Positions 1 to 31,332 of a stretch of DNA of 33,121 bases are shown here, in pieces. This DNA is from a virus. The stretch spans positions 1 to 33,121 of the IMG/VR virus record IMGVR_UViG_3300033145_001745, one strand, 5' to 3'. The position numbers were made by a program, and so were the translations under genes. Each line of letters opens with the position of its first letter. The stretch's first letter is position 1. The notes under the pieces are model-generated. The model ran no database searches. It was not told the DNA's origin and saw only the letters and a list, made by a program, of their open reading frames with translations.

Positions 1-90
1 TACATCGCGTCCACCCAAGATAGCAAACGACGCCGTGATTGAGGTTTTGCCGGTTCCGCCTTTTCCGGAAATTACAACTATCTCCTTCAT
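1..90 (-). CDS. Host MinD/Mrp-family P-loop ATPase, N-terminal fragment
   Basis: Only the first 30 codons lie in the window. The protein opens with MKEIVVISGKGGTGKT, the deviant Walker A motif of the MinD/ParA/Mrp family. This particular opening is common in the subfamily that carries an inserted ferredoxin domain and sits in operons of anaerobes with iron-molybdenum-cofactor-like proteins; that subfamily assignment is from memory of the family. Its ATG overlaps the TGA of the upstream host frame (ATGA), so the two were co-transcribed. It lies outside the proposed prophage end and shows which chromosome region was hit. Confidence 0.8.
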   Translation of the reverse strand, partial: MKEIVVISGKGGTGKTSITASFAILGGRDV

Positions 91-183
91 GATGCCGCCC
101 TCCATGACTGATCAGGCAGATAATCAATTATTTTATCCAGCTGTGCCTTTAACTCCGGTACTTCGGGATAAAGCAATTTTCCA
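87..183 (-). pseudogene. 3' part of a host gene interrupted by the prophage
   Basis: On the minus strand an open frame (HGKLLYPEVPELK..., ending in TGA at 87..89) runs from the phage boundary into the ATPase gene and overlaps its start by ATGA. If the phage is removed and one TTCCA copy kept, this frame continues into 33086..33121 as ...INDILCGKLLYPEVP.... The function is not recognised. One difficulty is an in-frame TAG in the last five bases of the window on that side. Either the gene begins in an unusual way or those last bases are not true host sequence. Confidence 0.6.
179..183. repeat. 5-bp target-site duplication, right-end copy (TTCCA)
   Basis: TTCCA here directly precedes a TG dinucleotide that I take as the phage right end. 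The same five bases follow the CA that ends the element at 33084..33085. Mu-family transposition makes 5-bp duplications. Five bases alone could match by chance, but the restored reading frame supports it. Confidence 0.6.
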
Positions 184-206
184 TGAGAGTAAAGCCGGGC
201 TGTACC

Positions 207-225
207 ACGCCAAATTAATTTACAT
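207..225 (+). promoter_or_regulatory. Putative transposase-binding site, right end
   Basis: ACGCCAAATTAATTTACAT lies 23 bases inside the proposed right end. It resembles three copies at the other end (GCGCCAAAATATTTTACAT, GCGCCAAATTACAT and an inverted GCGCCACATTAAATTACAT). The shared core is CGCCAMA followed by an AT stretch and TTACAT. Only one clear right-end copy was seen. Any second site would lie inside the reverse transcriptase gene. Confidence 0.55.
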
Positions 226-236
226 TTATGGACAAA

Positions 237-1229
237 TTAAAAGACATATTTTTTTACCCTATCTATCAACTCATAATTACTACCCCGCGACAGATGGCCA
301 ATGATAGATTGAATTCTTTGTTTATAATTTTCAAAATCTATATCACCGCTGCGATATTCATTATCCAGTTTCCTGATATATCGAAGCAATCTCTTCCTCT
401 TTTGACTTTTTATCCTTCGATGAGTTCTATAATTCATATAACCAAGAAATTCAACTCCGGAATCTATTGGCAGTATCCCTGTTTTATTATTTACATTTAT
501 GTTTAAATGCGTATTAATATAGTATTTAATATCCGTTAAAATGGATTTTAATTTAGTCTTATCGTCATCAAATATAAGCATATCGTCCATATATCTAATA
601 TAGCACCTCATTTTCAATTCATGCTTAACATATTGATCTAATTCATTCAGATAGATATTAGCAAATAACTGAGAAGTTAGATTGCCAATCGGTATCCCAA
701 TTTCTGCATCATTAGAATCGATAATATCATCGATCAACCAGATTGTATCATTCCCTATGGTTTTTCTTATTATACGTTTTAAGATGGCATGGTCTATAGA
801 ATCAAAATACTTTTTAATATCTATTTTGAGACAATATCGATTCTGAGGCTTCCGGATAAAATATCGACATCTATTAAGCGCTGCATGAGTTCCTTTGCCT
901 GTCCTGCACGCATAACTATCATATATAAACTGACGATCAAATATCGGTTCTATTATATTATGCAGAGCATGCTGTAACACTCTATCATAAAAAGGCAGTG
1001 ACATTATATGTCGCAGCTTTGGATCATATATATAAAAGTGATTATAATAGCCGGTCCGGTAAGTTCGCCAAATTAATTCATTTTGTAATTCGATAAGTTT
1101 CTCTTCATAATTATGAGAAAATAGTAATACGTCATCTCTAAAACGTTTACCTCTACATGCTTTATAATAAGCATTTAACAGATTATCATAATCATATATT
1201 TTCGCAAGCAAATCTTTACAGTATTTCAT
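237..1229 (-). CDS. DGR reverse transcriptase
   Basis: A 330-residue reverse transcriptase of the group II intron/DGR type. It copies the template-repeat RNA into adenine-mutagenised cDNA that replaces the variable repeat. The catalytic YMDD box is at residues 213-216 (within RYMDDMLIF). The preceding motif, GIPIGNLTSQLFANIYL, is typical of DGR enzymes. The fingers region contains DPKLRHIMSLPFYDRVLQH, and there is no maturase X/HNH extension. It is the last phage gene: its stop is 53 bp from the proposed right end. It follows target, avd and template repeat on the same strand, the same order as in Bordetella phage BPP-1. The ATG lacks a strong Shine-Dalgarno site, so expression may be low. 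Confidence 0.96.
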   Translation of the reverse strand: MKYCKDLLAKIYDYDNLLNAYYKACRGKRFRDDVLLFSHNYEEKLIELQNELIWRTYRTGYYNHFYIYDPKLRHIMSLPFYDRVLQHALHNIIEPIFDRQFIYDSYACRTGKGTHAALNRCRYFIRKPQNRYCLKIDIKKYFDSIDHAILKRIIRKTIGNDTIWLIDDIIDSNDAEIGIPIGNLTSQLFANIYLNELDQYVKHELKMRCYIRYMDDMLIFDDDKTKLKSILTDIKYYINTHLNINVNNKTGILPIDSGVEFLGYMNYRTHRRIKSQKRKRLLRYIRKLDNEYRSGDIDFENYKQRIQSIIGHLSRGSNYELIDRVKKYVF

Positions 1230-1491
1230 TTCACATCTTTAGTTGAGGAGCGCCGGCTTTCGCAACCTATTTACCGGCGATCCCAGTTAACAATTCGAAT
1301 ATCAGTTCTGGATAATGCTCTGATATTAAATCACATGATAATAATGCCTTGACATTATTATTCTTAAAATTCTAAATATCACAGGCGAACCGGACGCCAA
1401 TGTTACTGTTCGCGTTCCACGGATAGTTATTCCAATTCGAGCACCGGGAACCGCAATTCGCGCCATTGCTCCAGTTACCGCCAAAACAGCA
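1230..1491 (-). ncRNA. DGR template RNA region (template repeat plus spacer)
   Basis: This 262-base stretch between the avd stop and the reverse transcriptase start has no gene. It holds the template repeat (1379..1487), then about 149 bases of spacer. In studied DGRs this downstream spacer is part of the RNA that the Avd-RT complex needs for priming. A short hairpin, CGCCGG (1274..1279) pairing with CCGGCG (1251..1256), sits just before the reverse transcriptase gene. The RNA's true ends cannot be read from sequence. Avd and RT gene edges may also belong to it. Confidence 0.75.
1379..1487 (-). repeat. DGR template repeat (TR)
   Basis: This matches the variable repeat at 1858..1966 (offset 479) over 109 bp with 8 differences. 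Seven are at T on the + strand, that is adenine in the template: TR 1403, 1415, 1427, 1430, 1431, 1466 and 1475. One is not: TR 1425, T to G on the coding strand. In the target's frame the TR would encode a chain rich in AAC/AAT asparagine codons, as is usual in DGR templates because each adenine-bearing codon can change widely without making a stop. The TR starts four bases after the avd stop codon. Confidence 0.96.
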
Positions 1492-1824
1492 TTACCCATT
1501 TTTGATCATACCTCCTATGATACGACCAATTTCACTTACTTTTTCATAGATATACATATATTTCTTATTATTAATATAGTGCATATCATGAGCAAGTCGA
1601 ATCAACATCCGGTACTGCTCAAGCATTATGTCGGCATCATAATATATCGGTATTTTATTTCTGCTTTTATTAGCCTTTATTACCGTCCTGTAAAGGTCAT
1701 ACAGGCAGTTCTTAATCTGACTCGTCAGAGCGAATTTCTCGCTCTTCGGAAAATGATTAAGAACCGCCTGCTGATGCAATATTAGGTCATATATCTTCTG
1801 TGCTAATATAAAGCGATCCTTCAA
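1492..1824 (-). CDS. avd: DGR accessory variability determinant, Avd-like
   Basis: A basic 110-residue all-helical protein of the Avd/four-helix-bundle family. It contains the family's HFPKSEKFALTSQI segment (residues about 24-37) and the later YYDADIMLEQYRMLIRLAHDM helix. In BPP-1, Avd forms a pentamer that binds the reverse transcriptase and template RNA and is required for mutagenic homing. The start is TTG, preceded by GGAGG seven bases upstream. The gene begins 23 bases after the target gene's stop and ends just before the template repeat, so target, avd, template and RT are probably one transcript. Confidence 0.92.
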   Translation of the reverse strand: MKDRFILAQKIYDLILHQQAVLNHFPKSEKFALTSQIKNCLYDLYRTVIKANKSRNKIPIYYDADIMLEQYRMLIRLAHDMHYINNKKYMYIYEKVSEIGRIIGGMIKNG

Positions 1825-1847
1825 AACAGACCTCCAGATAACAGATA

Positions 1848-2957
1848 TCAGATACCCTCACAGGCGAACCGGACGCCAATGCTACTGTTCGCGGTCCACG
1901 GATCGCTAAGCCAATTCGAGCACCGGGAACCGCAATTCGCGCCACTGCTCCAGCTACCGCCAAAACGCGCAGCGACCAGCCCATAGGTGTCCTGGGTATA
2001 TAAGGCACCCTTATTCCCGATATTCGCAGACGTGGTCTGATCTTTCCATGACCATATCGTGTCACCCTCGGACTTGTACGACATATCACGACCCCATTGC
2101 CATAGCACGCCACAACAATCTTCTGCGCCAATATCGCTCTGGATACGAGAAGCAGCGGTATTAGTATGTCCGCCGGTTGTGCCGGGATCAGCTGAATCGG
2201 TGATATTAACTTCCTCCGGCGTCCCGAGCGCCATGTCGCCGAATTCCTGATATGATAACAGCCGTTTTCCCCTGGCGCTGGCCACTTCCTGAGCATTCAG
2301 AAATGTACAGGTATAAACACTATTTAACTTCGTAGCGCCGCCCAGCGCCGTCTGAAGCGCCGCGCTCATACTGTTTGCGCCGTCCCAGATCGTGCCTTCA
2401 TAAATCGATTGTCCGTCGGTATTGGTAAGGTAAATATCATACCACAGATTCAGATGTTTCGATTTTACCATTCCGCCCAACTGGCATTCAGTGTCGCCGG
2501 CGATTGCCTTCGCATAACACTGCGGCATATCGTTTAAATGCCAGACCGAATACTGCAATATATCACCGTCCGGCGAATTGTGAAATCCGCCGATCATGCG
2601 ATATTGAGTAATACTGTTATTGGTCCGCCATGTTGCGTCCGGTGCGCTGGCATTTGCGCTAATGATAAACACCGGCGTATTACTGTCGTCATCACAGATA
2701 TAAACATAATAGTCCGTCCCGACCGCCTCGGCGCCTGTATCCAGATCAGTTGTAATATCAAGATCCACATCAGTATCAAGCCAGAACACCTCCGTCCCAA
2801 CCCGGACCGGAAACTTATTCGACCCCTTCACAGTCACCGTCGCGGCGTCTTTGTAAGTAATTAATTTAAGGTGTTTCGGAATATCCATAATCCGGTTCAG
2901 GAAATCCTTGTTAAGCGGATAATTGCTATTGTTTTCAAAAAGTGTTTGATTAGACAT
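1848..2957 (-). CDS. DGR-diversified target protein, C-type-lectin-like phage adhesin
   Basis: A 369-residue protein whose C-terminus is the variable repeat. The C-terminal part (about 210-369) has the hallmarks of the formylglycine-generating-enzyme/C-type-lectin fold used by DGR targets: RLLSYQEFGDMA, then LWQWGRDM, then GGSWSSGANCGSRCSN and a final GVRFACEGI. Variable positions cluster between GGSW and SSIGVRF, the expected ligand face. The N-terminal 200 residues look like a beta-rich attachment domain. It lies at the end of the fibre module, overlaps the preceding small gene by 8 bp and has an AGGAGG site, so it is probably a distal tail receptor-binding protein. The virion location is inferred. 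Confidence 0.93.
   Translation of the reverse strand: MSNQTLFENNSNYPLNKDFLNRIMDIPKHLKLITYKDAATVTVKGSNKFPVRVGTEVFWLDTDVDLDITTDLDTGAEAVGTDYYVYICDDDSNTPVFIISANASAPDATWRTNNSITQYRMIGGFHNSPDGDILQYSVWHLNDMPQCYAKAIAGDTECQLGGMVKSKHLNLWYDIYLTNTDGQSIYEGTIWDGANSMSAALQTALGGATKLNSVYTCTFLNAQEVASARGKRLLSYQEFGDMALGTPEEVNITDSADPGTTGGHTNTAASRIQSDIGAEDCCGVLWQWGRDMSYKSEGDTIWSWKDQTTSANIGNKGALYTQDTYGLVAARFGGSWSSGANCGSRCSNWLSDPWTANSSIGVRFACEGI
1858..1966 (-). repeat. DGR variable repeat (VR) at the 3' end of the target gene
   Basis: The 3' 109 bp of the target gene, ending eight bases before its TGA finishes. Compared with the template, asparagine codons have become Ser, Thr or Leu: AAC to AGC, AAT to AGT, AAT to CTT, AAC to ACC, all adenine changes. 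One TAT to GAT is the exception. The last 24 coding-strand bases before the repeat boundary are identical to the template and include GTTCGCCTGTGA, a candidate initiation of mutagenic homing site. No internal mismatch marks a separate IMH and IMH*. Directionality may therefore be set by flanking bases, which diverge right after TGTGA. Confidence 0.95.
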
Positions 2958-4093: not shown

Positions 4094-4279
4094 TTAAAAA
4101 TTATAAGAAAGTAACATAGTATTACCAGCGCCTCGCTGTACTGATACGTTTATAAAATCAGACAAAGCCAGATTATCAGAAAGAATCTTTGTAAAATCCA
4201 CTTTAGTAAGCAGATCATCAGACAAAGCCAGATTATCAGAAAGAATCTTTGTAAAATCCACTTTAGTAAGTATCAGAAA
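4094..4279 (-). pseudogene. Out-of-frame 3' remnant of the repeat-bearing tail gene
   Basis: This frame continues the LSDNLALSDDLLTKVDFTKI repeats of the upstream gene and ends in a plausible C-terminus (FINVSVQRGAGNTMLLSYNF). It is separated from that gene by a 23-bp shortfall in one repeat unit. Adding the missing 23 bases would fuse it to the 4263..4742 gene. It has no start codon or ribosome site of its own at the join, so in this sequence it is probably not translated. Confidence 0.65.
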
Positions 4280-4342
4280 GAATCTTTGTAAAATCCACTT
4301 TAGTAAGCAGATCATCAGACAAAGCCAGATTATCGGAAAGAA
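4157..4342 (-). repeat. 60-bp tandem repeats in a tail gene, with one contracted unit
   Basis: A 60-bp unit (on + it starts ATCAGACAAAGCCAGATTAT) occurs at 4157..4216 and again from 4217. The next unit is cut: after CTTTAGTAAG at 4261..4270 the sequence jumps straight to TATCAGAAAG, lacking 23 bp, then repeats again to about 4342 with small divergence. More degenerate units continue to about 4440. Each encodes about 20 residues of the form LSDNLALSDDLLTKVDFTKI. Copies 1 and 2 are identical, which suggests recent expansion. Confidence 0.9.
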
Positions 4343-4742
4343 TCTTTGTAATTTGTTTTATGATAGAATCAGATAGAGATAAATTATCGGAAAGAACCTT
4401 CGTAGGGTCTTTAGCTATGCTATCGCCCAAATCCAGAGAATCATTTAATTGAACCATAAAAGCGGAATAAATTGTAAAATATGGGCTCCAATCAGATTCT
4501 TCGTTAATATCTTCTATATAAATCCGATAATCCGTACCGGAAGTTAACTCTGTCCCCGGAGTCCAAAGCTTGGAATTCTCATTCAGAAAAACACTATCAA
4601 TAACTTCTACTCGAGTATCTCCTTGCCAAAGACTCAATTCTTCTATGTGATCTGCCCCATAATCCCAAGTGATAGTATATTGAGTACCCTTCTTCCATTC
4701 GGAAACAGATGTCGGATTAGTGATTTCTAAAATATCAGCCAT
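4263..4742 (-). CDS. Tail/fibre protein with LSDNLALSD repeats, truncated by frameshift
   Basis: 159 residues as read. Residues 1-95 form a beta-sandwich-like domain (ITNPTSVSEWKKGTQYTITW, then YRIYIEDINEESDWSPYFTI) of the type found in extracellular adhesins. From about residue 97 the protein turns into repeats (LNDSLDLGDS, LSDNLSLSDS, LSDNLALSDD). It then runs into a frameshift at a contracted repeat and stops at ILSDTY. The natural full-length form probably ended at 4094. The gene overlaps the preceding gene's stop and has AGGATAAA before its ATG. The function is inferred from position in the fibre cluster. Confidence 0.65.
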   Translation of the reverse strand: MADILEITNPTSVSEWKKGTQYTITWDYGADHIEELSLWQGDTRVEVIDSVFLNENSKLWTPGTELTSGTDYRIYIEDINEESDWSPYFTIYSAFMVQLNDSLDLGDSIAKDPTKVLSDNLSLSDSIIKQITKILSDNLALSDDLLTKVDFTKILSDTY

Positions 4743-27741: not shown

Positions 27742-27779
27742 GTCTTAACTACCCTCTATTTTACATTTTACATTCTTAG

Positions 27780-27851
27780 TAGCGGAGGCGGGACTCGAAC
27801 CCGCGACCTGTTGGGTATGGGCCAACCGAGCTGCCACTGCTCTACTCCGCA
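27780..27851 (-). tRNA. tRNA(CAU), initiator-like
   Basis: A full cloverleaf of 72 bases: acceptor TGCGGAG/CTCCGCT, D arm GAGC-AGTGGCA-GCTC, anticodon arm GTTGG-CCCATAC-CCAAC, variable AGGTC, T arm GCGGG-TTCGAGT-CCCGC, discriminator A followed by CTA rather than CCA. The anticodon is CAU. Features of bacterial initiator tRNA are an unpaired 1-72 (U-U) and the A11-U24 pair. It lacks the full three G-C run in the anticodon stem (29-41 is U-A), and position 33 is C instead of the near-universal U. It sits nine bases after the DUF3164 stop inside the early operon. Confidence 0.88.
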
Positions 27852-28479: not shown

Positions 28480-29379
28480 TTATTTTAATCCTATGCCTAT
28501 CTTAATGCCTATCTGGATTCGCTCTTCAACCGACAGACGTGCCAGACCGGGCTCCGATGCGTTCTCAAATATATTCGTAAGTTGCCGCAATTCTCCCCGG
28601 CTGTTCACAAAATCCAGCAGGTACTTTGCCATCTTTTTGTTAATCTCAAGATTATATCGTCTTGCGATTAGAAAAACATCATCAATCGTCGGGCGTCCGA
28701 TCCGGCGCTTCAGTGAAATACGGCTGTAGATATAATCATAATTCTCTTTCCTGCTCCGGCCACGTGTCAAAATCTCTTCCAGAATCGGCAACCCCAGAAT
28801 AGCCAGGCCGCACCAGCGGGAATCCCAGATCGTCCGGATTATATCAATCGGCTTGAAATTCAGTTCATCCGCCTGATCAATTATGATCAACTGCGGCTGA
28901 ACTCTCAGCCGGGAAATAATAACATTCAGTTTGTCGTTCAGAGAACCCCGTAACATGGACACATTTGCGCCTACCGCCTTGCCGATATTGAAAAGCAGGG
29001 AATGACTATTCTCTGTGCCGTTAGCCTCGTAATAAGCTACATTCTCATTTGTCTGCGCATAATACCGCGACGTCTCTGTCTTGCCACAGCCGGCATTCGC
29101 CATAATCAGGGCGAAGCGCCGTTTCTCATGTGCCATTTTCAAGACCATCTGAATCGCCGTGAACGCCGTCGTCTTCTCCAACGACTGCCGCTGTTCTCGT
29201 TCCTGATACCACTGTATCAGTTGATTCTGCCGCGACTCAACGTCGCCCGTGTACTTTCCGTTCAAAATCAACGAGATGATCGCCCGGTTAACGCCTGTTT
29301 CCCTCGAGATTTGCCCCTGGGAAATCTGCTCATTCGCCACCATCTCTTTGATTTTTTGAATTTCAATTGGAAGCCCCAT
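28480..29379 (-). CDS. MuB-like AAA+ ATPase, transposition target activator
   Basis: 299 residues. An N-terminal HTH (QISQGQISRETGVNRAIISLILNGKY, about 18-43) is followed by the AAA+ core: Walker A ANAGCGKT (94-101), Walker B LIIIDQADEL (164-173), and the C-terminal helical domain (INKKMAKYLLDFVNSRGELRQLTNIF). MuB polymerises on DNA with ATP, chooses the target and stimulates the transposase. It follows the transposase with a strong AGGAGG site. Confidence 0.95.
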   Translation of the reverse strand: MGLPIEIQKIKEMVANEQISQGQISRETGVNRAIISLILNGKYTGDVESRQNQLIQWYQEREQRQSLEKTTAFTAIQMVLKMAHEKRRFALIMANAGCGKTETSRYYAQTNENVAYYEANGTENSHSLLFNIGKAVGANVSMLRGSLNDKLNVIISRLRVQPQLIIIDQADELNFKPIDIIRTIWDSRWCGLAILGLPILEEILTRGRSRKENYDYIYSRISLKRRIGRPTIDDVFLIARRYNLEINKKMAKYLLDFVNSRGELRQLTNIFENASEPGLARLSVEERIQIGIKIGIGLK

Positions 29380-29394
29380 ACATCCTCCTTCTCC

Positions 29395-31332
29395 TTATGA
29401 TTCAATCATCTGTTTTTCTAACATCTTCCAGACTTCTTCCTGAGTTATATCATCAATCGGAAGCGTTTCATCAAGTTCTTTTTTAATAAGACCTTCTTCT
29501 TTTTTTTGCCTTCCGGGATGTTCCGATTTGATGTATTTTATCTCACCATTCTTTGCAACGATTTCATCATAACGCTCTACGACCTGTTTGATCCATTCAC
29601 GCTGCTTAGCTATTTCTTCGCTAATGATCTCGTTTTTAGCATTAAATGGAACAAACTTAGATACTGTTGCGTCGCAAATATATTCATATTCTTTAAGAAT
29701 AATCGCTTTATTTATATTATCAGGCGATACGGCTATTCTAATATTTTCGCCGATAATGTGATTTAATTTGGGATGTCTGTAAATCCTGTTATTGTAATGA
29801 ACACCATCCCTTTGTACAACCCGACTTTCCCACGGAAGCAATAACATCTCAAGCGCATGTTTGTCAATAGTTTTCGGACGGTAGCCGTGCTGATATGCCT
29901 CTGTCCATACCTGAAGCGGAGAACGTCTATACATTCCGGTGCCTTTATGTTCAGACATATTATATTTATTTATTACTTCAGCAACTACCTTATAGAACTC
30001 GCTGAAAGTAAGCAATTCTCCGTTATCTTTTGCTTTATTTAGTCGATCTTTATCTGCTTCCGTCATAGCGCCGACAATATTTCCCGTATAACCAGGAACA
30101 CCTTTGTTGAGTATTCGCTGATCCAGCGTCTCGAACCAACGCTCGATTGGCTTAGCCTGCGGATTGCGAACAATCGCCTGGCGAGGTTCAATTCCCAATT
30201 CTGTAATGATGCCTTCTATCTCATCACTATTATATCGACGTAATATCTTCCGTAATTTCTGATTCGAATCGTCAATTATCTGTGTGCCGAATTCTTTTAC
30301 ACCCTGCATATATTTCGATAATTCAGGACGACCCCAGTCCGTGTATATCATCTTAGGAATACCATATACCGGACTATCACTCGTCGGGATAATACCACGT
30401 ATCAGCGCGCTCGCTACGGTTTGTGAATTATAATGCTTCGTTATATCAAAGCCAACCAAATACCGGCTCTTAATATCCATCCAGGCAAAACCTTCCGGTC
30501 TGAATATCTGCTTTGTAACATTATCGATAACCCAATGATTGAATCGATGTTGATCACCAACCCATACATCATTCACCTGAAGATCATTGTAATCGCGCAA
30601 TATAGGAGGCGCCATTTTGTTTTTAAGCGCCCAAATGCCTTCATCCCTATACATCCTGAGTGCTGCTTTTTTATCATAACTCTGTATCAATCTCTGAGTG
30701 CTGCGACAGGAACCGACCTTATAACCCAATGGCTCACAATGAGCCTTCGTCTTTTCCCATGCAGATTTTATTGTACTGTGAGGTGTACTGAAATATGTTT
30801 TTAGTAAAACATCAATAGCATATTCATCATATACTCTAAACTTCCCTTTGTCATTGCGTTCATGATGAGCATAATGATCTACGACAGGTCCAACCGTTTT
30901 ATATTTACTCAGGTCGCCCTGGATCGTCCGAACGCTTAACCCGCTGTAATCGCTAAGATATTTATACCATTCTCTTTTTTTATTACGAAACTTAAAAGGT
31001 AAATAAGCAGCCATCCTGGCAATATTCAGACGTTTAATTGCCTGTTCTCTTTTGTGACTATTGCATGGTAATAGGAGTTTTGAATTTGGTAAATAGATTA
31101 ACTCTTTATCGCCGTCCGGATCTTTGGTAATCAACTTAAAATACTTTATCATTCCCTCTGGCGATAACTCCTGAATAGGTATCCGGTATATTACACCACC
31201 GCGCCCGGTATTGGACCGCTCCGCGATTGCGAATATCTTTTCGTCTTTGATTTTTTGCTGTACTGTTCTTTCAGAAATTCCTGTCAGATCAGCATATTCT
31301 TTTGTCGTTAAATATCCGAATCGCTGTGGCAT
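29395..31332 (-). CDS. MuA-like DDE transposase
   Basis: 645 residues. An N-terminal winged-helix part (MPQRFGYLTTKEYADLTGISERTVQ; GRGGVIYRIPIQELSPEGM) binds end sites. More helical DNA-binding segments follow at about 80-230. The RNase-H catalytic core has D260 (WVGDQH), D332 (IYTDWGRPE) and E397 (KPIERWFETL). The C-terminal beta-barrel (VHYNNRIYRHPKLNHIIGE) is followed by a basic helical tail that would contact MuB. The ATG overlaps the previous stop as TAATG. It integrates and replicates the phage. Confidence 0.97.
   Translation of the reverse strand: MPQRFGYLTTKEYADLTGISERTVQQKIKDEKIFAIAERSNTGRGGVIYRIPIQELSPEGMIKYFKLITKDPDGDKELIYLPNSKLLLPCNSHKREQAIKRLNIARMAAYLPFKFRNKKREWYKYLSDYSGLSVRTIQGDLSKYKTVGPVVDHYAHHERNDKGKFRVYDEYAIDVLLKTYFSTPHSTIKSAWEKTKAHCEPLGYKVGSCRSTQRLIQSYDKKAALRMYRDEGIWALKNKMAPPILRDYNDLQVNDVWVGDQHRFNHWVIDNVTKQIFRPEGFAWMDIKSRYLVGFDITKHYNSQTVASALIRGIIPTSDSPVYGIPKMIYTDWGRPELSKYMQGVKEFGTQIIDDSNQKLRKILRRYNSDEIEGIITELGIEPRQAIVRNPQAKPIERWFETLDQRILNKGVPGYTGNIVGAMTEADKDRLNKAKDNGELLTFSEFYKVVAEVINKYNMSEHKGTGMYRRSPLQVWTEAYQHGYRPKTIDKHALEMLLLPWESRVVQRDGVHYNNRIYRHPKLNHIIGENIRIAVSPDNINKAIILKEYEYICDATVSKFVPFNAKNEIISEEIAKQREWIKQVVERYDEIVAKNGEIKYIKSEHPGRQKKEEGLIKKELDETLPIDDITQEEVWKMLEKQMIES

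Follow-up and report, generated by a model that had tools for sequence, protein, structure and literature searches.

The window, meaning the whole stretch of DNA analysed here, is the complete IMG/VR record of 33,121 bases. Near its left end it carries a diversity-generating retroelement (DGR) on the minus strand, which runs from the target gene (2957-1848) through Avd (1824-1492) and the template repeat (TR, 1487-1379) to the reverse transcriptase (RT, 1229-237). The features referred to below are the following.

1848-2957, minus strand: target gene, Mtd-like tail receptor-binding protein, 369 aa (PF21916, E 8e-16; phrog_11262, E 7e-58; PDB 1yu4, E 1e-22)
1858-1966, minus strand: variable repeat (VR) of 109 nt at the 3' end of the target gene, differing from the TR at 8 positions, 7 of which are TR adenines
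1827-1853, minus strand: heptad array directly 3' of the VR, four CTGs at 1851-1849, 1844-1842, 1837-1835 and 1829-1827
1492-1824, minus strand: Avd (accessory variability determinant), 110 aa, TTG start (PF22296, E 5e-28; phrog_3206; NF033474)
1702-1770, minus strand: stem-loop inside the Avd frame, 88-156 nt 3' of the VR (from a fold of 1695-1780)
1379-1487, minus strand: TR, between Avd and RT, 23 adenines, 9 AAY codons
1230-1378, minus strand: spacer between TR and RT, which should form the 3' part of the DGR RNA; contains an A+T-rich stem-loop tipped by TCAAGG
237-1229, minus strand: DGR reverse transcriptase, 330 aa (phrog_1423, E 1.5e-126; PDB 8ub7, E 4e-55; translation)
28480-29379, minus strand: MuB-like transposition protein (phrog_296, E 1.8e-43)
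29395-31332, minus strand: MuA-like transposase (PF02914, PF09299)

The reading frames of RT, Avd and target are all open from start to stop. The RT translation contains YMDD and IGNLTSQ, so the YxDD motif is intact; its structural match, PDB 8ub7, is presumably the RT of BPP-1. For Avd, the matches to PF22296 and NF033474 are both above the cut-off. The target protein has the VR at its C-terminus and is related in sequence to Mtd (1yu4 is an Mtd structure). The gene order target-Avd-TR-RT is that of the Bordetella phage BPP-1 (mtd-avd-TR-brt), which also shares with the window an Mtd-type target, the RT, Avd and an adenine-biased TR/VR pair. Sequence identity to BPP-1 is 29% over 96% of the target and 35% for the RT. 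The window thus holds a DGR in BPP-1 order and, as a DGR, an ordinary new member. An initial annotation had described all parts as intact and in BPP-1 order and the target as a probable tail adhesin. The open frames and the order on the minus strand confirm the former, and the matches to PF21916 and to the Mtd structure identify the latter as an Mtd-type tail receptor-binding protein.

TR and VR form a direct repeat of 109 nt with 93% identity. Read on the minus strand, 7 of the 8 mismatches fall on the 23 TR adenines (hypergeometric p = 5.7e-5). The only other mismatch is a T to G change (TR 1425 / VR 1904), and 85 of the 86 non-adenine positions are identical. The earlier count over 107 nt, with seven of eight differences at 22 adenines, is reproduced and becomes seven at 23 over the full length. 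In the target frame, each of the 23 adenines is the first or second base of a codon. Nine TR codons are AAT or AAC, and six of these are altered in the VR. In BPP-1, 18 of 22 mismatches fall on adenines and the two repeats differ near their 3' ends, whereas those of the window are identical over the final 24 nt. The nine AAY codons correspond to target residues 335, 338, 341, 348, 350, 351, 355, 357 and 359. By an alignment judged by eye, the columns that vary among the five solved Mtd variants are residues 335, 337, 338, 341, 348, 350, 351, 355, 357, 359 and 360, which include all nine. The proposed location of the variable residues on the ligand face of the adhesin is therefore supported by homology, as a prediction from the sequence.

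Besides the MuA- and MuB-like proteins, the window encodes a portal, a Mu F-like head protein, a terminase and a tape-measure protein. At the left end, positions 1-216 (minus strand) resemble a host gene junction, where a frame beginning MKEIVVISGKGGTGKTSI, which we take to be the start of a P-loop ATPase, follows the end of another frame. This end suggests an integrated prophage whose right end lies near position 215. A tRNA-Met (CAT) gene is found at 27779-27851 (minus strand), with the MuB-side genes on one side and the head genes on the other. Direct repeats of 37 to 81 nt, spaced by 54-97 nt, occupy positions 4157-4404, where the frames 4094-4315 and 4263-4742 overlap; one unit is apparently shortened, and the repeats could be variable or an assembly effect. 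The window is a Mu-like virus of bacteria, as initially proposed, and DGRs are already known from Mu-like phages such as BalMu-1 and the hankyphage of Bacteroides, which is described as a transposable Mu-like phage with a DGR (PMC6199706). We rejected the idea that the RT group is Mu-like in general, as Mu-transpos_C was present in just 3 of 34 records, many of which may be fragments. The three are the window, BalMu-1 and a prophage of Fervidicella metallireducens (L006 / L111). The latter combines a DGR RT and a Mu-type transposase with an array and a GATA-loop hairpin; a search of this prophage for an A-biased pair detected none.

For comparison we collected 185 RT-bearing loci, in which the window is counted twice; 153 of them contained a biased pair at p < 1e-3. 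Pairs had to show at least 4 mismatches and an A share of at least 0.7, and named phages were admitted under the same p limit. Loci without a biased pair were dropped (32 of 185 in the first set, 21 of 99 in the second). Removal of the second window copy and of two T-biased loci reduced the 153 to 150 rows, and removal of 6 duplicates left 144; in the second set 7 duplicates were removed. A further 71 pairs were fetched with other RTs under a rule fixed in advance. Loci were assigned to the class 'up' when the TR lay within 700 nt 5' of the RT and the VR lay 5' of the TR.

Against the 144 distinct A-biased pairs, preselected for A shares of 0.7 or more, the A share of the window (7/8) is below the median of 1.0, and 122 pairs are higher. 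The fraction of TR adenines changed (7/23, 0.30; median 0.52) is among the three lowest of the 144. The initial annotation had read the clean adenine bias as a sign of recent homing. The comparison gives this reading no support, as 88 of the 144 related pairs differ solely at adenines. The pattern shows that adenine-specific homing took place in the past but carries no date. Relatives of the window at the DNA level were found neither in the phage collection nor, by TR pattern, among viral contigs, searches from which very near records were possibly excluded.

Directly 3' of the VR, the four CTGs of the window follow each other at 7, 7 and 8 nt, the first overlapping the target stop codon. The pattern CTGNNNNCTGNNNNCTG occurs once in the window against an expectation of 0.12. 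ATCTG repeats at 7-nt steps are found 3' of the VR in the window, in the Bacillus phage BalMu-1 (NC_030945) and in two further loci, L002 and L003. The RTs of these three relatives are 43-48% identical to that of the window (45% for BalMu-1). BalMu-1 resembles the window in being Mu-like and in carrying target, Avd, TR and RT near its right end. Unlike the window, it has an imperfect GGTA-loop hairpin after the array, as seen by eye. Its target is annotated as SUMF1/EgtB-like and is outside the 15 records that match the target of the window.

Three or more CTGs chained at 7-8 nt were present in 56 of 100 VR flanks but in only 1 of 100 TR flanks from DGRs with the TR upstream of the RT (0.65 in shuffles). 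When all 64 trinucleotides were ranked on these 100 VR flanks, CTG came first with 56, followed by ACT with 11. Because Vibrio and Aeromonas phages use TTG as well, we counted YTG rather than CTG. In DGRs of the window's order, 76 of 179 VR flanks have a run of three or more YTGs at 7-8 nt, versus 2 of 179 TR flanks. Per RT cluster this amounts to 20/44 for the VR and 0/44 for the TR (Fisher p 1e-7, kinship being handled by 60% clustering alone). The first set alone, in clusters of 60% RT identity, gave 16/30 for the VR and 0/30 for the TR, a count that, like the one for ATC below, was not blind, as the motifs were widened after these sequences had been viewed. Fourteen new clusters without an RT at 60% identity to the first set gave 4 for the VR and 0 for the TR, although one query behind them was itself an array-bearing phage. 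For a heptad chain of any trinucleotide the figures are 24/44 VR clusters versus 4/44 TR clusters (shuffles 1.8). The scan over spacings has its maximum at 7-8 nt, and self-identity of the VR flanks at lag 7 reaches 0.37 compared with about 0.25 at most other lags. Periodicity is weaker in the TR 3' flanks of 30 RT clusters, with 0.31 at lag 7. In many of these 30 clusters the flanks share, by visual inspection, a spacer pattern of CAGAWGT, a stem, an AAGGG tip and CAGTRCA, located within the expected DGR RNA.

The core of the repeat differs between lineages at equal spacing (AATCTG, ACTG, YTTG or ATC), and units vary even inside single arrays. In one clade of eight clusters ATC takes the place of YTG; five of these have chains of three and three have chains of two, at a spacing of 7-9 nt, and the TR flanks of the same clusters give 0-2. 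One RT cluster, selected on its RT without regard to the motif, offers 44 distinct flanks. Information content there is 1.92 bits for the 12 columns of the CTGs and 0.57 bits for the 13 columns in between, and a YTG chain is present in 40 of the cluster's 45 members. When mapped onto the RT tree, the array requires 6 changes, compared with a shuffled mean of 14.7. It fills a clade of 11 clusters to which BalMu-1 belongs, together with loci from genomes of Lachnospiraceae and Selenomonadaceae; the window and L003 sit on separate deep branches. A YTG chain of three is absent from 24 of the 44 clusters, 13 of which have Avd. Among loci with a different gene order, heptad chains, counting every trinucleotide, were present in 8/45 VR and 1/45 TR flanks.

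BPP-1 itself, for which homing has been proven, has only a YTG pair and a GAAA-loop hairpin 4 nt past the VR, compared with four CTG heptads and no hairpin in the window. Among BPP-1-like DGRs, a YTG pair at array spacing is found just before the hairpin in 47 of 50 VR ends versus 1 of 50 TR ends. In BPP-1, the differences between VR and TR near the 3' end create the first CTG of the pair in the VR and break it in the TR. The pair in this group is only suggestive, since it lies in the coding sequence of one clade, where protein constraint or descent could explain it.

In L078 a further VR, situated upstream of the first at a distance of about 1 kb, is also followed by ATCs at 7 nt and a hairpin, as judged by eye; no other second VR was found in the stretches covered at 178 loci. 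In phage nd12 (L201, 5701-5830) a VR in the middle of a gene is followed by four TCTs at 7-8 nt in an open frame, possibly an array retained within coding sequence or possibly chance.

Within 2.9 Mb of DGR loci there are 78 chains of four CTGs. Flanks of identified VRs account for 53 of them, and 25 lie outside such flanks. Sixteen of the 25 lie on the RT/target strand, at DGR loci that were duplicates of others, where the pair was undetected or where the VR end had been set short. By eye, 15 of these 16 precede a hairpin, the exception being L286, which is like L287 (see below). Where the RT was located (14 of the 16), it lies 679-1663 nt downstream of the end of the array. The remaining nine chains are on the opposite strand and appear unrelated. 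As a lone finder of remote second VRs the three-CTG pattern was rejected because whole bacterial genomes contain it too often (genomes of 3.1 and 4.4 Mb gave 26 matches in forward and 26-27 in reverse orientation). Around three candidate extra places a second VR was sought, and none was found in those stretches. Pairing of the array with the spacer RNA of the same DGR was also rejected, the complementarity being 5.9 nt for own and 5.94 nt for cross comparisons. Altogether, the existence of the array and its conservation across a widespread class of target sites are well supported.

In most cases the array is followed by a GC hairpin (73 of 76, versus 21 of 76 in shuffles). The loop has 4 nt in 62 of the 73 hairpins, and 49 of the 73 begin 0-4 nt past the last YTG. 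Guo et al. (2011) found a hairpin/cruciform 3' of the VR, in the same place as the array, to be critical in BPP-1 (PMC3240598). For phage DGRs their text gives stems of 7-10 bp, GRNA loops and a distance from the VR of 4-34 bp described as 'quite flexible' (PMC3240598). Where an array is present, most of this flexible distance is thus taken up by the array itself. Three arrays lack the hairpin, namely those of the window, of its nearest RT relative L003 and of L287. In the window we searched for a GC-rich hairpin with a 4-nt loop within about 34 nt of the VR, as at the BPP-1 site, and found none after the array; the 78 nt 3' of the VR fold no better than shuffles as DNA (z +0.46). Since the hairpin important in BPP-1 is absent here, the description of this DGR as active-looking needs a caveat. 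A strong fold is present further downstream at 1695-1780 (DNA -23 kcal/mol, z -6.6; RNA -41.3 kcal/mol, z -7.4; none of 200 shuffles reached values this low), and the stem-loop at 1702-1770 could be a displaced hairpin. The spacer between TR and RT (1240-1378) folds with z -3.1 as DNA and -2.4 as RNA, and an AAGG-type tip is common among relatives by eye.

An Avd-like frame near the TR was found in 20 of 20 array clusters versus 13 of 24 other clusters of the window's order (Fisher p 3.5e-4, again with kinship handled by 60% clustering alone). Avd does not bring the array along, since 26 of 45 loci of other gene order have an Avd-like frame but only 8 of 45 have heptads.

The window carries an Avd-type DGR in a Mu-like phage. 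Based on these observations we propose that its array is probably a recognition or strand-opening element which marks the recipient site for homing. By analogy with BPP-1, the RT-Avd complex would copy the TR RNA with errors at adenines, and the cDNA would replace the VR of the Mtd-like receptor-binding protein, so that up to nine residues of the binding face could vary. The YTG triplets at 7-8 nt, which lie past the end of the TR/VR homology, would mark the recipient site. Acting together with the hairpin usually found behind it, the array would help to distinguish the recipient VR from the donor TR. In the window, where the hairpin is missing, homing may be less efficient, may use the array only or may proceed via the stem-loop 88 nt downstream in avd.

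Avd is a pentamer, and TRAP is an example of a ring protein that reads spaced triplets. Spaced triplets on one strand together with a pentameric Avd suggest, as a guess, a ring-like reading of single-stranded DNA. We offer it tentatively, as a rather doubtful extension of our proposal, that a ring-shaped oligomer, most simply the Avd pentamer, might read the array as single-stranded DNA, that the array might thereby make the VR and not the TR the recipient, and that some DGRs, the one in the window among them, might use the array with no hairpin.

The lack of the hairpin could also mean that the DGR of the window is decaying, with homing weak or switched off and the A-biased differences correspondingly old. 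The small number of changed adenines and the one non-adenine difference fit such a state, and in a BPP-1 repair reporter deletion of the stem-loop caused a severe, though not complete, impairment (PMC12875486). However, the frames of RT, Avd and target are open and TR and VR remain nearly identical outside the adenines. In L003, moreover, an array without a hairpin is accompanied by changes at 11 of 24 adenines, so this state is compatible with activity at some time. We therefore regard decay as unlikely, although it deserves consideration. Less probable still is that array and hairpin form a leader of the avd mRNA with a role in translational or transcriptional control, outside the homing target. 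The array of the window does overlap the likely ribosome-binding site of avd (GGAGG 1835-1831; TTG start 1824), and in Beggiatoaceae TAACTGA heptamers that precede start codons have been suggested to serve as regulator sites (PMC4679880). On the other hand, the BPP-1 hairpin is needed for homing even when avd-TR-brt is supplied on a plasmid (PMC3240598), which bears on the hairpin and not on the array. The second VR of L078 has its own heptads and hairpin, the intervening stretch being unannotated, and the VR of nd12 keeps its triplets although it is located within an open frame 3' of the RT gene, a single case in which chance is possible. Finally, that the heptads are a passive spacer produced by repeat slippage and kept merely to set the distance of the hairpin, as the co-occurrence and close abutment of the two might suggest, is very improbable, as slippage would keep the whole unit, whereas the CTGs are kept and the bases between them vary, units differ within one array and lineage cores differ at the same spacing.

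How a DGR directs mutations to the VR and not to the TR is not fully understood. A 2026 reconstitution of a DGR in E. coli likewise calls the retrohoming step incompletely understood (PMC12875486). The main text of Guo et al. names no repeated motif in the gap between VR and hairpin (PMC3240598); this refers to the text as distinct from their Figure 5, in which sequences of this kind are displayed. A repeated triplet 3' of the VR is not mentioned in the open-access DGR texts consulted, which included PMC3240598, PMC12875486, PMC3521204 (DiGReF) and PMC10743442 (tentaclin), a scope of running text as opposed to figures, supplements and subscription papers. A term search of the text of Roux 2021 (PMC8144416) found no mention of such an element. 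The Beggiatoaceae heptamers are similar in length to the array units, but occur mostly before start codons, and the text of that paper contains neither 'retro' nor 'reverse transcriptase' (PMC4679880). Among the texts consulted the heptad array seems to be new, and it may mark where the mutation lands.

The array offers a sequence rule for recipient sites, as illustrated by the 15 additional four-CTG chains before hairpins at DGR loci that the TR/VR search had missed, shortened or counted as duplicates (several are copies of each other). A motif that stands 3' of the VR and hardly ever of the TR, with its spacing kept across distant phages, is a concrete target for mutagenesis and binding tests. 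If the array matters for homing, knowing it would aid the construction of DGR-based mutagenesis tools from other phages.
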